64,000 bases of DNA, from NCBI GenBank assembly GCA_028281325.1, contig JANQKC010000035.1:62001-126000 (forward strand). Direction: 5' to 3'. A model generated the notes under the pieces. That model was given only the letters and a program-made list of their open reading frames with translations. It had not been told where the DNA came from and did not search any database. The position numbers and the translations under genes were made by a program. Shown here piece by piece: positions 24,126 to 33,334 of this stretch. Origin of the DNA: Alphaproteobacteria bacterium. Lineage in GTDB: Bacteria > Pseudomonadota > Alphaproteobacteria > UBA8366. Positions within the stretch are counted from its first letter, which is position 1. Each line of letters starts with the position of its first letter.

Positions 24126-25466
24126 CTATCCCGCCGGTAACGGGTTCGGATGTTCGGCCCGGTCGATGGGCAGCATTTGGTCGTCGAGGATGTCACGCAG
24201 GATGACGTCGCGCACTTCCTCGGGATCGAGCTTGTGCAACTCGATCATGTCCTGGGTGTCGGCGATGATGGCGTCCACGTCCTGCATCAGCTTGAGGCGC
24301 TTGAAGATGTCCTCGCGATGCAGCCCCATGCTCGCGCCGATCAACTCCATGAAGTTCACAACCTCGAACGACCACTGGTTTTCGTGCGACGACAGCTCCC
24401 GATGGTCGGAATGGTAAATGCCCGCCAGCGCGGTGACGCCCGCCTCCTCGGCCGCCGCAAGCTCTGTCGCGATCAACTGCTGCCGGAAATCCGGCACCGG
24501 GGCGAGCGAGGTCAGCATATAGCCGACCTGCGGCATCTCCAGGTCGACAAGCTCCAATTCCGGGATCGACGACAGCAGGTCCTTGACCGACGACGCCACG
24601 CCCTCCGCACCCGGATGCTCGTGCAGCGCCACTTTCTTCGGCACCGGCCGCGTCATCATCGGCCGTAACGCGTCGATCCGCCGCGCCAGATAGACCGCGA
24701 ACATCGTCATGTCGAAATCGGGATCGTTGCCGCTGTGGTTCGGTAAGGCGGTTTCGCCGAATTGAATCTGGCAGGTCGGGCACCAGGAAAGGACTTCCGA
24801 GGTCTTGGTCTGCGAGAACCGCTCGATGGTCTTATACGCCTGCCGCCCCGCATTGGCGTCGTCCCCCGGCCGCATCTGCAGGATGCCGCAGCAATTCGCC
24901 GGCCCGCCGTAGACTTCATAGCTGACGCCCAGCCGGTCGAGCACATCCAGGCACAGCAGGCCGATATGCGGCGTCCGCAGCATGTTGCAGCCGGTATAGA
25001 AGATCAGGTCGGGCGCCTCGTCACGCTCCGGATGCGAGGACGGGTTCAGCCGCGCCAGCAGTTCGGGCGGAAGCTGCAGCCGGGAGAGAATCCGCACCCC
25101 TTGGCTCATCTTCTTGAAGCCCTGCTTTCCGGCGTCGCGGCGCGTCTCGACCGCCTCGCGTTTCTTCATCGCGCGGCGCGCCAACGAGAGCATGAAACGG
25201 GGATTCACGCCGTCGTTGCAAACCTCGATGCAGTGGCCGCTGCTGGTGCAGGCGGTCGCCCAGGTCTCGGAGTCGGCGGGGCCGCTGCCCTCGCGCAGGA
25301 TGTCCAATACGCCGGACACGATCCGGCCGGGATCGGACGCGTCGACGCCGACAATCCCCGGCATGGGGCACACGTCGACGCATTTCCCGCATTGGGAGCA
25401 GGCATTCAGAATGGAGTCGGCTCTGGCGTCGAGCGACGAGAGAAAATCATTGGGTTCTGTGCTCAT
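24126..25466 (-). CDS. (Fe-S)-binding heterodisulfide-reductase-like protein
   Basis: 446 residues. The first ferredoxin-like motif is complete: CSQCGKCVDVC (Cys23, 26, 29, 33). The second reads CTSSGHCIEVC, so the second Cys of a CxxCxxCxxxC set is replaced by Ser76. Two CCG-type cysteine domains follow (YTGCNMLRTPH...NCCGI, and WCPTCQ). This is the plan of GlcF/HdrD-type subunits that pass electrons from a flavoprotein dehydrogenase. The window's flavin enzyme at 15845 is not adjacent, so the partner is unclear. Cytoplasmic, no membrane segment. The redoxin gene lies 78 bp upstream. Confidence 0.85.
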   Translation of the reverse strand: MSTEPNDFLSSLDARADSILNACSQCGKCVDVCPMPGIVGVDASDPGRIVSGVLDILREGSGPADSETWATACTSSGHCIEVCNDGVNPRFMLSLARRAMKKREAVETRRDAGKQGFKKMSQGVRILSRLQLPPELLARLNPSSHPERDEAPDLIFYTGCNMLRTPHIGLLCLDVLDRLGVSYEVYGGPANCCGILQMRPGDDANAGRQAYKTIERFSQTKTSEVLSWCPTCQIQFGETALPNHSGNDPDFDMTMFAVYLARRIDALRPMMTRPVPKKVALHEHPGAEGVASSVKDLLSSIPELELVDLEMPQVGYMLTSLAPVPDFRQQLIATELAAAEEAGVTALAGIYHSDHRELSSHENQWSFEVVNFMELIGASMGLHREDIFKRLKLMQDVDAIIADTQDMIELHKLDPEEVRDVILRDILDDQMLPIDRAEHPNPLPAG

Positions 25467-25544: not shown

Positions 25545-26018
25545 TCAGCTCTTCTTGGATTCCAGGAAGGTGATGTAGGTCACGGCCTCTTCGGCGTTGA
25601 TGCGGCCGACCGGCCCCGCCGCATACATCAGGTTGAGGACATTGCCGTCCCCATCCAGGATGAATTCGGAAGGCTGGATGATGCTGCGCCGGTCCTCCCA
25701 GAACGCGCCGAGCATGTCGGCCTGTTCCTTGGTGACGCCATGCGCCATCGGGTAGGAAAGATCGGCGGCGATTTCACCGGCCTTTTCCACGTCATCGACG
25801 CTGCCGGCGATGACGCTCACATCGAGGGCCTGAAGTGCCGTTAGCTGCTTTTCGAAGCCGGCCAACTGCCGGCGGCAGTAGGGTCACCAATGGCCGCGAT
25901 AGAACAGGATGATCGAGTAGTTGGAGCGGTGGTCGTCAGGGACCGTAACCGTATCCCCGCCGACCAGATTCAGGGTCATCGATGGGAATCGATCCCCTAT
26001 GTCGAGCTTGTTTGCCAT
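25545..26018 (-). CDS. Redoxin (AhpC/peroxiredoxin-like) with in-frame UGA at the active site, probable selenoprotein
   Basis: 157 codons read through one internal UGA. The chain begins MANKLDIGDRFPS and reaches FYRGHW, then UGA (25884-25886), then PYCRRQL. In this family the motif is RGHWCPYC, so the UGA replaces exactly the first, catalytic Cys (position 45), leaving Cys48 as the resolving residue: a UxxC redox site. Homology and reading frame continue without break on both sides, up to the C-terminal FLESKKS. A hairpin fitting the bacterial SECIS lies 11-27 nt after the UGA. Selenium at this site would raise peroxidase rate; the substrate is unknown. A simple nonsense mutation is the alternative. 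Confidence 0.8.
25857..25873 (-). promoter_or_regulatory. Candidate bacterial SECIS hairpin
   Basis: On the coding strand the 6-bp stem GCCGGC/GCCGGC closes the 5-nt loop AGUUG. The stem begins 11 nt after the UGA and the loop 17 nt after it, with G as second loop base followed by U. That fits the general bacterial SECIS rules (short stem, apical G near the loop start, 16-37 nt from UGA) and the 11-nt spacing of E. coli fdhF. It lies inside the coding sequence, as bacterial SECIS elements must. Confidence 0.6.
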
Positions 26019-26342
26019 CCGTCATGCTAGGCGGATTAAAGAATCCCGGTCAACGAAAGATTAAAACAGACCAACGCCGCCTCCACCGCGCATCCAAAAA
26101 GTGACGGCGATCCCGGAATTACAATCAAGACATGCAAAATTTCTGCAAAAAACAACAAACCGGCAAATTTATGTAAAGAAACGCAAAAACAGGAGTGAAT
26201 TCTTACTAAATATTAATGTTAAGGTTAATTATACTACTTTTTATCCTAATAAATCCGAAAATGTGATGAAAATCACTGAGGTATTTTAGATAAAATTTGT
26301 ACAACTACTTTGTTGTTAGGTCGTACAATTAGGATTAGTCGG
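26019..26342. promoter_or_regulatory. AT-rich 324-bp divergent intergenic region with CRP-like site
   Basis: This stretch is much more AT-rich than the rest of the window and separates the redoxin gene from the TadG-like gene. At 26262-26277 lies TGTGATGAAAATCACT, which is TGTGA-N6-TCACT, one base from the CRP consensus TGTGA-N6-TCACA; the window's own CRP/FNR regulators make it a reasonable operator for the rightward gene 66 bp away. No gene is seen in it; a short open frame at 26101-26289 has no RBS or homology. Confidence 0.5.
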
Positions 26343-27608
26343 ATGGATGCACTGACTTGGGTTTCCCGCTTCTTCGGCGCACTGAAACGCGATCAACGCG
26401 GCAGCACCGTCACCTTGATCGCCGCGGCAGCCGTGCCGCTGGTGGCGTTCGTCGGCCTGTCGGTCGATACGGCGCGCGGCTACCTACTCAAGCAACGGAT
26501 GGGCTTCGCACTCGACGGCGCGGTGCTGGCCGCAGCCACCCTCCCCAACGCCTCCGAAGACGAAGTCAAGGCGATGGGTAAGAAATTTTTCGACGCCAAT
26601 TTCCCATCCGGTTACATGGGCATCGGAACGGTTACACCGACATTCACGTTGAGTACCGACAAGACAACGGTGACCGGCGACGTCACGGCCGACATGCCGA
26701 CCGCGCTGATGAGCGTCGTCGGCCTGGACACGGTGGATATTGGATCGAACGCCGCAGCGCAACGGCAATCCAAGGGCTTGGAACTCGTGCTCGCGTTGGA
26801 CAATACCGGTTCAATGTCCAATGCAGATATCCGCGACTTGAAGGACGCATCGGAAGCCCTTCTAGACGTGCTCTACGGCGATCGCGAGACTGTCGATAAC
26901 CTCTGGGTCGGCTTGGTTCCATTCGACTTGCGGGTGAACTTGGCGAATTATCCAAGCATCATGGGATTTACCGCCACTAACCCGAACCACGTTTGCGCAA
27001 ATCAGCGAAGCGGTCACGAAACGGACGATGCCACGCCATCCACGAGCCCCTTCGACACCGAATACAATACAGAATACAGCCTTGAAGAAGAGTGGGGATG
27101 CCAAGCGGCACCTGCGCTTGCCCTGACGAAAGAGCGGTCCACGCTGGACGCTACCTTGGAAGAAATGGACGACCTAGGCGGCACCCGCATCGATATCGCC
27201 GCCGCCTGGGCCTTCCGCATGATCTCGCCGAAGTGGAAGGGACTTTGGGGCGACCCGGACACGCCCAAACCTTACGATGAACCGCTCATGGAAAAGGCTG
27301 TGATTATCATGACGGACGGCGAGAACGCTCCCCATCCGATTCGTAGTCCATCTCACTGGAAATACGATCCAAACGTTCCGTCGGCGGCCACGGCGAATGC
27401 CCGATTGACGGCAACCTGCACCGCGATGAAGGATAAGGAAATCATCGTTTATACAATTCAATTCAATAAGACGAGCACATCGCTGAGAAACCTACTCACG
27501 AACTGCGCTACGAGTCCCGATCATTACTATCACGCGGCCTCGGACGAATTGGACGACGTCTTTGTCGAAATTGCCAACAAGCTGAGCAATCTGCGCCTGC
27601 TCAACTAA
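26343..27608 (+). CDS. TadG-like protein with von Willebrand factor A domain
   Basis: 421 residues. A short basic N-terminus (RDQRGS) precedes one membrane helix (VTLIAAAAVPLVAFVGLSV) and the TadE/G-type segment DTARGYLLKQRMGFALDGAVLAAA. From about residue 145 a VWA domain begins with the metal-ion site DNTGSMS and has TDGEN later. TadG-like proteins are anchored in the inner membrane and work with Flp/Tad pili, or stand alone with unknown surface roles. No other tad or cpa gene is in the window. The VWA region has codon use closer to AT-richer genes. Start taken at MDALTWVSRF; a terminator follows. Confidence 0.85.
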   Translation: MDALTWVSRFFGALKRDQRGSTVTLIAAAAVPLVAFVGLSVDTARGYLLKQRMGFALDGAVLAAATLPNASEDEVKAMGKKFFDANFPSGYMGIGTVTPTFTLSTDKTTVTGDVTADMPTALMSVVGLDTVDIGSNAAAQRQSKGLELVLALDNTGSMSNADIRDLKDASEALLDVLYGDRETVDNLWVGLVPFDLRVNLANYPSIMGFTATNPNHVCANQRSGHETDDATPSTSPFDTEYNTEYSLEEEWGCQAAPALALTKERSTLDATLEEMDDLGGTRIDIAAAWAFRMISPKWKGLWGDPDTPKPYDEPLMEKAVIIMTDGENAPHPIRSPSHWKYDPNVPSAATANARLTATCTAMKDKEIIVYTIQFNKTSTSLRNLLTNCATSPDHYYHAASDELDDVFVEIANKLSNLRLLN

Positions 27609-29524: not shown

Positions 29525-30253
29525 TCAGGCGCAAAGACGAGCGTCCATGTCGCCATCGGCCAGCACCGCCAGGGCAGCGTCATCGCATACTTCGATTTCA
29601 TGCGGATCCGCAAAAGAGACGATCCCTTGCGCCTTGAACTGGCTGAATATCCGGCACACCGTCTCATGGGTGAGACCGAGATAGTCGGCGATATCGACCC
29701 GCGTCATCGGCAAGACGACGACATGGCTCTCGCCGCCTTGGCGCAGGGCTTGCTCGGTCAGTGCAACGAGGAAACTCGCGACCCGTTCCGATGCCGATTT
29801 GCGGCCCAGCAACAAAAGCTGGTTCTGAGCTGCGTTCAACTCGTCCCGGATCGACGCGAATACCGCGCGCCGGAGGGTCGAGCTTTCCTCCATGCAGGCC
29901 TCCAGATCGGCTCGCCGGAAGCGTTGAACCGTTACTTCGTTCAGCGCATCGGCCGTGTATGGATAGGCGGCGTTCGCACTCAGTCCGATGAAATCGCCGG
30001 CATGGCAAAAGCGGGAAACCTGACGACGGCCATCAGGCAACAACTTATAGAGGCAGACAGTGCCGCGAACGACACGATAGTGAAAGTCGGCCTGATCGCC
30101 TTCCCAAAACAATGATTCTTTCGGTGCATAGGTCGCCACTCCGCCGATGCTTTCGAAGGCGGCACAATCCCTACGGCGCATGCCATCATCCCCGTGCGGA
30201 ACGATGGTTACCGGACGTTTCGTCTCGATTGCTATTGGTGCTATTGGCCTCAT
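29525..30253 (-). CDS. fixK: Crp/Fnr family regulator, FixK type
   Basis: 242 residues. A cNMP-binding-like barrel (about 35-140, ESLFWEGDQADFHYRVVRGTVCLYKLLPDGRRQV) precedes a long helix and an HTH with VDIADYLGLTHETVCRIFSQFKAQGIV, whose ETVCR recognition helix is the FNR/FixK form that reads TTGAT half-sites. The N-terminus has no FNR-type cysteine cluster (only a single Cys in RRRDCAAF), so it is a FixK rather than an FNR oxygen sensor. It lies downstream of a receiver gene, fixJ and fixL on the same strand, the usual cascade that induces high-affinity oxidase genes in low oxygen. Confidence 0.88.
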   Translation of the reverse strand: MRPIAPIAIETKRPVTIVPHGDDGMRRRDCAAFESIGGVATYAPKESLFWEGDQADFHYRVVRGTVCLYKLLPDGRRQVSRFCHAGDFIGLSANAAYPYTADALNEVTVQRFRRADLEACMEESSTLRRAVFASIRDELNAAQNQLLLLGRKSASERVASFLVALTEQALRQGGESHVVVLPMTRVDIADYLGLTHETVCRIFSQFKAQGIVSFADPHEIEVCDDAALAVLADGDMDARLCA

Positions 30254-30345
30254 CGCGTACCCCCTAACCCTGAATGTTCATGGTCTTGCGATGACGCTAT
30301 AGTCAGCGACAGACGCCGCTGGAAAAATTCGGATTTATACGTACG

Positions 30346-30359
30346 GGATAACCCTTACA
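30346..30359 (-). promoter_or_regulatory. Candidate FixJ binding site upstream of fixK
   Basis: On the fixK strand the sequence GTAAGGGTTATCCC resembles the FixJ site of Sinorhizobium fixK as I recall it (GTAAGTAGTTTCCC), 10 of 14 bases. It lies about 93-106 bp before the fixK start, overlapping the end of the receiver gene. The match was read by eye, so it is tentative. Confidence 0.3.
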
Positions 30360-30729
30360 CCGGCATCAATCGAAAAATGATGCGAAGAAGTTCGACCGTA
30401 TCAAATGGCTTTTCGATCATGGCGGATGCGCCCGAACGCTTAAGAAGCTCGGCGGAATTGTCATCCCTGTAACCCGTCATAACAATGATCCCGGTGTGGC
30501 TCCAGGATCGGCGGAACCGAAGCAACAATTCCAAGCTATCCTCGACCGGCGGCTGCAGTTCCGCCAGCAGGCACGATTTCTCGGGCGGCCGAAAACGTTC
30601 CAACACCGTCGGCAATGAGGCGAACGTCCGAGCCGCGAATCCCTCGATTTCCAAAACCAGCCGAAGCGAGTCGCGCACGGCATCGTCATCGTCGACGATA
30701 CAAATCGTTGGAGCCACAATCTCTGACAT
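30355..30729 (-). CDS. Single-domain receiver protein lacking the phospho-acceptor Asp (pseudo-receiver)
   Basis: 124 residues, a lone CheY-like receiver with no output domain. The acidic pocket (DDDD at 13-16), the Thr of VMTGY and the Lys of MIEKPF are all kept. The acceptor Asp is not: FixJ-type CVLLDVRMP reads CLLAELQPP, so Glu57 stands where Asp should be. A Glu there cannot be phosphorylated and can mimic the phosphorylated state. It lies between fixK and fixJ on the same strand, the position of FixT-like FixL antagonists, some of which are receiver-like. It has two Cys (10, 53). Start at ATG 30729; a GTG 9 bp upstream is possible. Confidence 0.8.
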   Translation of the reverse strand: MSEIVAPTICIVDDDDAVRDSLRLVLEIEGFAARTFASLPTVLERFRPPEKSCLLAELQPPVEDSLELLLRFRRSWSHTGIIVMTGYRDDNSAELLKRSGASAMIEKPFDTVELLRIIFRLMPV

Positions 30730-30850
30730 TTCTTGCACTGCTTGTTGGTCGATCGAAGTCTCCTACTTTACTCATAAGCGCAATGACTGTCTGCAACCAT
30801 ACGGATTGTTACGTATTTTTGAACGACATTGGCGAGCGGCGGGTTCGAGT

Positions 30851-31474
30851 TCACGACCAATCCGGATCGATACCCGCGGCAAGCGACAACCGAACCAGAT
30901 GCGACAGGCTCCGCGCTTTCATCTTTTCCATGATCCGCGCCCGATGGATTTCCACGGTTCGCGGACTACAGCCTAGCTCATGGGCGATGACCTTGTTCGG
31001 GCGTCCAATAACCAGATGTTCCAGCACGTCCCGCTCGCGCGGCGTCAGCCGCTCAAAGCATCGCTTCGCGCTGGTGCTCATGGCATGCTGACGATCGGAC
31101 TGCTCGGCGCGCTTCAGGGCGGTATCGATGCTCTGAAGCAGGGTGTCCTCATGGAACGGCTTCTCCACAAAGTCCACCGCCCCCGCCTTCATCGCGCCCA
31201 CGGCCATCGCGATATCGCCATGCCCGGTGATGATGATGACCGGCAGATCGGGCCGCACCGCCCGCAGCCGTTCCTGCACTTCCAAGCCGTTCATCTTGGG
31301 CATCCGCACGTCGAGCAGGACACATCCCTTGAAATCGGCGTCGCATGCATCAAGGAAATCCGGCCCGCAGGCGAACGCTTCGGTCTCATATCCGACGGCA
31401 TCCAGCAGAATCCGCAACGAGTCACGCACCGCCTCGTCATCATCGACGATGTATATGGTGTAGATCTGCTCCAT
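30851..31474 (-). CDS. fixJ: Response regulator FixJ
   Basis: 207 residues. Receiver domain with DDDE at 11-14, phospho-acceptor Asp55 in CVLLDVRMPKMNGLEV, Thr in ITGHGDI and Lys in FVEKPF. A LuxR-type HTH occupies about 140-200 (RLTPRERDVLEHLVIGRPNKVIAHELGCSPRTVEIHRARIMEKM). FixJ phosphorylated by FixL activates fixK in low oxygen. It starts 11 bp after the fixL stop, so the pair is one operon. The upstream in-frame extension (to 31513) overlaps fixL and lacks homology. Confidence 0.95.
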   Translation of the reverse strand: MEQIYTIYIVDDDEAVRDSLRILLDAVGYETEAFACGPDFLDACDADFKGCVLLDVRMPKMNGLEVQERLRAVRPDLPVIIITGHGDIAMAVGAMKAGAVDFVEKPFHEDTLLQSIDTALKRAEQSDRQHAMSTSAKRCFERLTPRERDVLEHLVIGRPNKVIAHELGCSPRTVEIHRARIMEKMKARSLSHLVRLSLAAGIDPDWS

Positions 31475-31485
31475 CGCTCTCGTCG

Positions 31486-32997
31486 CTAGTCGACCAACGG
31501 CAAGGTAAACCAAAACTCGACGCCCGCGTCGGGACAGGGTGCAACGTCGATGCGCCCACCATGATCTTCCACGATCGAGCGGCTTATCGACAACCCGATA
31601 CCCATTCCATTCGGCTTGCTGGTATTGAAGGATTGAAAAAGCTTCTCGGCAATTTCCTTGTCGAGCCCCGGCCCATTGTCGGCGACCGACACGCGGACTA
31701 TGCCCCTATCCTGACGCGTCGTCACCCGGATCGCCGCATCCGACTGCCCTTCCAGGGCATCGATGCTGTTGCGCAGTAGGTTCACCACGACTTGCTGAAT
31801 TTGTACGCGATCGATCATCACCGACGGCAACGCCTCTTCCAACTGCGTGGTGATGACGATTCCGTCCGTCTGCGCGCCCACCAACGCCAGATCGCAGGCT
31901 TCTGTCACGACCTCATTGATGGCGTCGGGCATCTTTTCCGTTTCGCCGCGCGCCACAAAGCTTCGCAGCCGGCGGATGATTTCGCCCGCCCGATGCGCTT
32001 GAGCCGACGCCTTCGACAGCACGTCTTCGATTTTCTCCCGGGCGTCGGGACGATCCGATTTCAGGACACGCCGGCCCGCCTGCACATAGTTCATCATGGC
32101 GGTCAGCGGCTGATTCAGCTCATGCGCCAATGTCGCGGCCATTTCGCCCATCGCGCTAAGACGGGAGATATGGGTGAATTCCGTTTGAATCTCCTGAATA
32201 CGCTGCAGGCTGTTTCGAAGCTGGTCTTCGGCCTCGCGACGTTTGGTGATATCCCGGATAAATCCGGTGAAGCGCCGCTGGTCGCCCAATTCGACCTCGG
32301 CCACCGCCAGTTCGATCGGAAAGGTGGTGCCGTCCTTGCGCAGACCGATGACTTCACGCCCAATTCCGATGATGCGCTTCTCGCCGGTCTCCTGGTACCG
32401 GTGCATGTACCCGTCGTGTTCCGACCGGTACGGCTCGGGCATCAGAACATGGACATTCTTGCCGATGACGTCGCCGGCGGCGTAGCCGAACATACTTTCC
32501 GCCGCGGTATTGAACGATTCGATCCGGGCCAGATGGTCGATCGTGATGATTGCATCCGGCGAGGTCGCGATCATCGATTGCAAAAGCGCACGGTTCCGTC
32601 GCAGCGCCGACTCCACGGCCAGACGATCGGTGATATCGATCCCGGTCCCGATGACGTAATGGACATGGCCTTGGTCCCCCGTCGAGACCGTATTGGACCA
32701 GGTAATACGCCGCCGCTCACCATCCTTGGTGATCCAATCGTTCGTGTGACTGTTCGGCCGGCCGCTCTTACGGAGTTCATCGAAAACGGCGCTGACCGTC
32801 TCGGCGTCGCTTTCCGCAACCAGCACATCCCAAATCGGCTTACCGACGACGTTGGCTTCCCGATAGCCGGTCAGTTCCTCGCACGCCCGGTTGAACCGGA
32901 CGAGCCGGCCGTCCGTATCGAGCACGACCACAAGCGCGCCGAGAACGTCGAGCAAATCGTCCAGCGACACCGGACTAGAGGGAGTACATCGCGACAT
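31486..32997 (-). CDS. fixL: Oxygen-sensor histidine kinase FixL (heme PAS)
   Basis: 503 residues, like rhizobial FixL (about 505). Two PAS domains (about 10-125 and 135-255) precede HisKA and HATPase_c. In the second PAS the heme-ligating His194 lies in RSEHDGY and the distal Arg214 in IIGIGR, the same numbers as in Sinorhizobium FixL, so this is a heme sensor for oxygen. The phosphorylated His292 is in ATLAHELNQPL; the ATP-binding N box NLLRNSIDAL and G boxes DNGPGL and GMGIGLSIS follow. There are no membrane helices, so it is soluble. The first PAS has no known ligand. Start at MSRCTPSS; a longer frame upstream is not typical. Confidence 0.95.
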   Translation of the reverse strand: MSRCTPSSPVSLDDLLDVLGALVVVLDTDGRLVRFNRACEELTGYREANVVGKPIWDVLVAESDAETVSAVFDELRKSGRPNSHTNDWITKDGERRRITWSNTVSTGDQGHVHYVIGTGIDITDRLAVESALRRNRALLQSMIATSPDAIITIDHLARIESFNTAAESMFGYAAGDVIGKNVHVLMPEPYRSEHDGYMHRYQETGEKRIIGIGREVIGLRKDGTTFPIELAVAEVELGDQRRFTGFIRDITKRREAEDQLRNSLQRIQEIQTEFTHISRLSAMGEMAATLAHELNQPLTAMMNYVQAGRRVLKSDRPDAREKIEDVLSKASAQAHRAGEIIRRLRSFVARGETEKMPDAINEVVTEACDLALVGAQTDGIVITTQLEEALPSVMIDRVQIQQVVVNLLRNSIDALEGQSDAAIRVTTRQDRGIVRVSVADNGPGLDKEIAEKLFQSFNTSKPNGMGIGLSISRSIVEDHGGRIDVAPCPDAGVEFWFTLPLVD

Positions 32998-33079
32998 ACG
33001 ATAATACTGGCTGAATCGGCACGCGGCGGCAATCGGGCGAAACCGCACACAACAGGATACGCGCTCGGTACGCATCGGA

Positions 33080-33093
33080 TTGATCCCCATCAA
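33080..33093. promoter_or_regulatory. FNR/FixK box, perfect palindrome TTGATCCCCATCAA
   Basis: The sequence matches the anaerobox consensus TTGAT-N4-ATCAA at all ten specified positions, with A and T flanking it symmetrically. It lies 83 bp upstream of fixL (leftward) and 62 bp before the start of the rightward small gene at 33155. A FixK or FNR protein could thus control either or both; the distance fits a class-II position for a promoter of the small gene. Confidence 0.85.
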
Positions 33094-33154
33094 TGTCGCG
33101 ATGCCGGGAACCAAGCACTCTAAAGTCGAATCAGTCTTCGACGTGGAGGAAAGG

Positions 33155-33334
33155 ATGCGGGAAACGGAAATCATCGACTATGCAAAACGGTTGCTTGATG
33201 CGCATGGCAAAGAGGCGGAACGGGAAGCGGCCCAGAAAGCACGTAAGTATTCAGAGAAAAACGATCCGGAGCAGGCGGGAACGTGGCGCAAGATTCGATC
33301 CGCCATTGGCGAACTGCGCAGTTCGTCGCCCTGA
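33155..33334 (+). CDS. Small hypothetical protein, 59 residues
   Basis: Begins MRETEIIDYAKRLLDAHG, a predicted helical, charged and soluble protein with many Lys, Arg and Glu, ending IGELRSSSP. A strong RBS (GGAGG, 5-6 bases before ATG) decides this start over a more upstream in-frame codon. The perfect FNR/FixK box 62 bp upstream suggests oxygen-controlled expression. Function unknown. The stop is 6 bp from the stop of the convergent gene. Confidence 0.72.
   Translation: MRETEIIDYAKRLLDAHGKEAEREAAQKARKYSEKNDPEQAGTWRKIRSAIGELRSSSP

Follow-up and report, generated by a model that had tools for sequence, protein, structure and literature searches.

Does the in-frame TGA that interrupts a redoxin gene in an alphaproteobacterial contig end translation, or does it encode selenocysteine (Sec), and, if the latter, what kind of enzyme would the gene specify? 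We examined this question in a window of 64,000 nucleotides, by which we mean the whole stretch of DNA that was analysed (C24:62001-126000 of a 5.1-Mb, 41-contig draft genome that is 98.9% complete). Taken together, the data are with high confidence best explained by a selenoprotein gene in which UGA45 is decoded as Sec and whose product is a thiol-redox enzyme with a UxxC active site.

The redoxin gene and its product

The gene occupies positions 25545..26018 on the minus strand and starts with an ATG at 26018. Although a plain ORF call returns only a 106-aa fragment, translation with TGA as Sec yields a frame that is otherwise open over 157 residues (MANKLDIGDRFPSMTLNLVGGDTVTVPDDHRSNYSIILFYRGHW-U-PYCRRQL...ESKKS), in agreement with the preliminary description of this DNA, which had reported a frame open on either side of a single in-frame TGA. 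This TGA is codon 45 (25884..25886, minus strand) and lies within the motif FYRGHW-U-PYC, whereas the terminal TGA stop is located at 25545..25547 on the same strand; full-length orthologs terminate within a few codons of this stop, with TAA, TAG or TGA. As predicted, the product would carry one Sec, at position 45, and Cys48 is its sole cysteine. Pfam recognizes an AhpC-TSA domain (PF00578; 2.1e-20, 73.3 bits against a cut-off of 26) as well as Redoxin (3e-12). The AlphaFold2 model (pLDDT 95.8, pTM 0.91) shows a peroxiredoxin-like domain, and its best match among PDB structures is Bcp4 (3hjp, TM 0.87).

Active site and putative mechanism

The preliminary description had proposed a UxxC redoxin selenoprotein with the UGA at the peroxidatic Cys. 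The first part of this proposal was upheld, and the second had to be given up. In our profile alignments, the peroxidatic Cys (CP) of peroxiredoxins corresponds to Cys48 and their catalytic Thr to U45, while the two cysteines of the ResA CxxC motif fall in register on U45 and Cys48. (The two top PDB profile rows, 'Tako8', were ignored as summed sub-threshold repeat matches.) These correspondences, with Cys48 at CP and U45 at either Thr or the first Cys of the ResA motif, do not support the assignment of U45 as the peroxidatic residue. Because of the same alignments, a thioredoxin-like mechanism is likely.

The protein might still act as a true peroxiredoxin-type peroxidase, in which peroxide would react at Sec45 or Cys48; we consider this possible but unlikely. 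Peroxiredoxins give the top matches in both sequence and structure, and the redoxin alignment has an invariant Arg139, as would suit such an activity. However, the peroxiredoxin signature PxxxTxxC reads RxxxUxxC in this protein, with CP on Cys48 and Thr on U45, and the CxxC motif of ResA also lines up with UxxC, which argues against a peroxidase.

Returning to the thioredoxin-like mechanism, we provide a putative sequence of events. UGA codon 45 would be decoded by SelB and Sec-tRNA-Sec rather than ending translation, as the presence of the corresponding genes suggests, and the hairpin just 3′ of the UGA would direct this decoding. The product would adopt a peroxiredoxin/thioredoxin fold in which a helix begins with the UxxC active site. 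Its Sec45 would most likely be the attacking nucleophile, and Cys48 would resolve it as an intramolecular selenenylsulfide, which would then be reduced by a cellular thiol system. Judging from the fold and the motif, the activity is likely to be disulfide or peroxide reduction.

Relation to known redoxins and selenoproteins

Thiol-disulfide oxidoreductases of the ResA/StoA type act outside the cytoplasm. Their CxxC aligns residue for residue with the UxxC of the window redoxin, whereas the latter begins with MANKLDIGD and has no visible signal sequence. The Cys forms with YRGHWCPYC, which are peroxiredoxin-like and presumably of the cd02970 type, have a Cys where the window redoxin has Sec, at the first position of the motif CxxC. 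A selenoprotein described under cd02970 has UxxS, not UxxC (PMC13188914).

The redoxin has a closer counterpart in the Prx-like thiol:disulfide oxidoreductase selenoproteins ('Prx-like 1' in the GOS survey), which have UxxC where Sec-peroxiredoxins have TxxU (PMC1088965, PMC2398784, PMC13188914). The PF00578 domain and UxxC are common to both, and the same redox role is predicted for both. By fold and motif the redoxin fits this kind, whose published representative is WP_010940744.1. In contrast to 'Prx-like 1', the present clade bears the signature YRGHWUPYC and is found in Alphaproteobacteria. With PrxU, the TxxU Sec-peroxiredoxin, the redoxin shares a peroxiredoxin fold with an active-site Sec, but its Sec is at the Thr position rather than at CP, and it scores only 23.9 bits against NCBIfam peroxi_PrxU, far below the cut-off of 270 bits; the Sec at the peroxidatic position that marks the PrxU type is absent here. 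Overall, an additional lineage of an already described selenoprotein kind, and not a new system, is a well-supported conclusion. FdhA was the only selenoprotein known in Alphaproteobacteria at the time of a 2006 survey (PMC1794560); compared with that early picture of Sec-FdhA alone, a lineage of UxxC redoxin selenoproteins is now documented across several alphaproteobacterial families.

Conservation of the TGA codon and of the downstream frame

We sampled 385 alphaproteobacterial genomes for orthologs (match threshold E <= 1e-15). Redoxin matches were obtained in 23 of them, 21 with an internal TGA and two stop-free. The TGA was always at the position of codon 45, where the Cys homologues carry TGC or TGT, and all 10 aligned Cys homologues have Cys in the U45 column. 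An in-frame UGA aligned with the Cys of homologues is a hallmark of bacterial selenoproteins, and the earlier suggestion that the TGA replaces the conserved Cys of an RGHWCPYC motif, to be checked against homologues with Cys at position 45, is borne out by this comparison.

The simplest objection is that the TGA is a true stop, the product of a nonsense mutation, and that the redoxin gene is dead. An in-frame TGA taken alone, with an ORF call of 106 aa, does look like a pseudogene. Nevertheless, we regard this explanation as very improbable, given that the codon TGA is kept in 22 Sec sequences of the class, most of which are only 45-63% identical, that the frame downstream of it shows purifying selection and that the TGA form is associated with SelA. 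Downstream of the TGA, the window gene and its counterpart in the sister MAG OFTM110 (L041) differ with a dN of 0.028 and a dS of 0.34 (dN/dS about 0.08), and by this measure the region is under purifying selection in close pairs. Decay in the same clade, which the preliminary description had named together with frameshifts as an adverse sign, was not found among the class orthologs. SelA is present in 21/21 TGA genomes compared with 56/385 overall (Fisher p = 6e-20, a value that overstates the case, since the genomes are not independent, although the 21 TGA genomes span about ten family groups), and both Cys-homologue genomes among the 385 are without SelA. We conclude that the gene, although cut short by a plain ORF call, is very probably functional.

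A sequencing or assembly error at a TGC or TGT codon might be suspected in a draft genome of 41 contigs, but we give it practically no credence, as the same TGA recurs in OFTM110, which was separately assembled and is 96% identical, and in 20 other genomes.

A further 398 genomes sampled from the phylum contributed only one additional homologue, which is stop-free. Cys homologues with YRGHWCP[YF]C come from Chloroflexota, Thermomicrobiota, Actinomycetota and one Gammaproteobacterium. In a 30-sequence tree, the Sec forms lie on one side of a single branch (support 86/79, recovered in 86% of bootstrap trees), a topology that favours, without proving, that the Sec form arose once.

The Sec machinery of the genome

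The preliminary description had assumed that the organism possesses SelA, SelB, SelC and SelD, and all four were located in the genome, as expected for a bacterium that makes selenoproteins. SelA (C24:191793-192908, E 6e-164), SelB (C24:189843-191732, 3.6e-135) and tRNA-Sec (C24:188565-188655, 76.7 bits; called tRNA-SeC with anticodon tca by ARAGORN) are grouped within 4.4 kb at C24:188565-192908, on the redoxin's own contig. SelD is encoded at C17:10982-11911, and here too a TGA falls in frame within the active site, GGGUGCK. A change of the genetic code, with TGA read as Trp or Cys instead of Sec, would likewise leave the redoxin frame open, yet it can be dismissed as next to impossible in view of the gene's own TGA stop, the TGG codon of the adjacent Trp44, the use of all three stops by the orthologs and the presence of SelA, SelB, tRNA-Sec and SelD. 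From the sequence comparisons and this gene set we infer that the TGA at codon 45 is almost certainly read as selenocysteine.

Several side observations concern this machinery. The SelD locus (L121:1483-2430 in our extract of C17) is itself a Sec-type gene, and a second, stop-free SelD-like match lies in an 819-aa frame at C33:123515-124432. The tRNA-Sec gene (L144:1977-3811, near 188.5 kb of C24) has a CMD-family gene on one side and an MR/MLE-family gene on the other, and is not nested in selB; a nested tRNA-Sec has been reported for other Alphaproteobacteria, as cited in PMC9312934. Another member of this neighbour's CMD family follows the redoxin in three other genomes (G300, G210 and G378). 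No Sec-type formate dehydrogenase was found in the window's own genome, where TIGR01553 gave no match above its cut-off and none with an internal stop.

A conserved SECIS-like hairpin

Downstream of the UGA, at 25857..25873 on the minus strand, lies a bacterial SECIS-like hairpin, GCCGGC-AGUUG-GCCGGC, with a stem of 6 bp, a loop of 5 nt (AGUUG) and an energy of -11.5 kcal/mol. The spacing from the UGA to the apical loop is 16 nt, and the second loop base is G. Bacterial SECIS elements are expected to have a loop of 3-9 nt, a stem of 4-16 bp, a G at one of the first two positions of the loop, a distance of 16-37 nt from the UGA and a minimum free energy at or below -7.5 (PMC13188914). All of these features fall within the published limits, and the earlier claim that the hairpin conforms to the bacterial rules was therefore confirmed. 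In one sequence alone, however, such a hairpin is weak evidence, as about 0.3-0.4% of the window's positions have a 6-bp/5-nt hairpin, and it is cross-species conservation that makes it significant. Rfam at gathering scores did not find SECIS in the window. Our argument rests on the comparison of species because the single-sequence fold of 51 nt was no better than its shuffles (z = -0.06).

Among the 22 Sec sequences, all six pairs form in 17 and five pairs in the other 5. This amounts to 127/132 pairs, compared with 96 +/- 4 and a maximum of 114 in 2000 draws of random synonymous codons. Two of the six stem pairs show two-sided, compensatory changes. The covariation score of 0.326 exceeded all 500 shuffled values (0.176 +/- 0.026) and those obtained when the alignment was slid (<= 0.125), in shuffle controls that leave the kinship between sequences in place. 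The loop AGUU is invariant across the 22 sequences, and Leu52, whose codon lies in the loop, is encoded by TTG or TTA in 22/22, whereas CTN predominates at the gene's remaining conserved Leu positions. Taken by itself, the hairpin does not reach -7.5 kcal/mol in 9/22 Sec sequences. For several orthologs, among them L020-L022 and L031, the minimum-energy 45-nt fold is a different, more stable hairpin, so that the SECIS-like hairpin is a probable rather than a certain form of the active RNA.

Genomic neighbourhood and possible role

The redoxin lies less than 7 kb from selA in 7/21 genomes, which represent four family groups, and this frequent proximity to selA-selB is a hint at its role. In three of these seven (G210, G378 and G113), the redoxin is flanked by a member of a deiodinase-like family. 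In G210 and G113 this flanking gene was read with an in-frame TGA, in the motif SYTUPPFR, and the G210 protein is recognized by Pfam T4_deiodinase (9.6e-23). These genes (L131:5657-6361 in G210, the L138:4182-5048 region in G113) are close to selA-selB, and the deiodinase-like gene is likely, by sequence, a second Sec gene in the same cluster. A deiodinase search of the window's own genome was empty, and its controls gave no match either.

One could speculate that the Sec system is kept in these bacteria for a few thiol-redox selenoproteins rather than for formate dehydrogenase, and that the redoxin serves selenium or selenoprotein metabolism. We hold this to be rather improbable. If it were true, the small set would comprise this redoxin, Sec-SelD and, in some genomes, the deiodinase-like protein, and a role in selenium or selenoprotein metabolism would fall to a redoxin repeatedly encoded beside selA-selB.

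Within the window, the gene directly downstream of the redoxin, on the same strand after a gap of about 80 bp, encodes a heterodisulfide-reductase-like Fe-S protein with 4Fe-4S dicluster and CCG domains (24126..25466, minus strand; Pfam CCG 6.9e-9, Fer4_8 4.5e-6). The two genes are perhaps co-transcribed. As a fixed partner of the redoxin this protein was dropped from consideration, since it does not recur beside the orthologs. On the other side, a TadE/G-like Flp pilus protein (26310-27608, plus strand; Pfam Tad 7.8e-6) is encoded divergently from the redoxin, and farther along, at 29525-33174 on the minus strand, a run of regulatory genes (one of the Crp/Fnr type, two for response regulators and one for a PAS histidine kinase) resembles a FixK/FixJ/FixL-like set.
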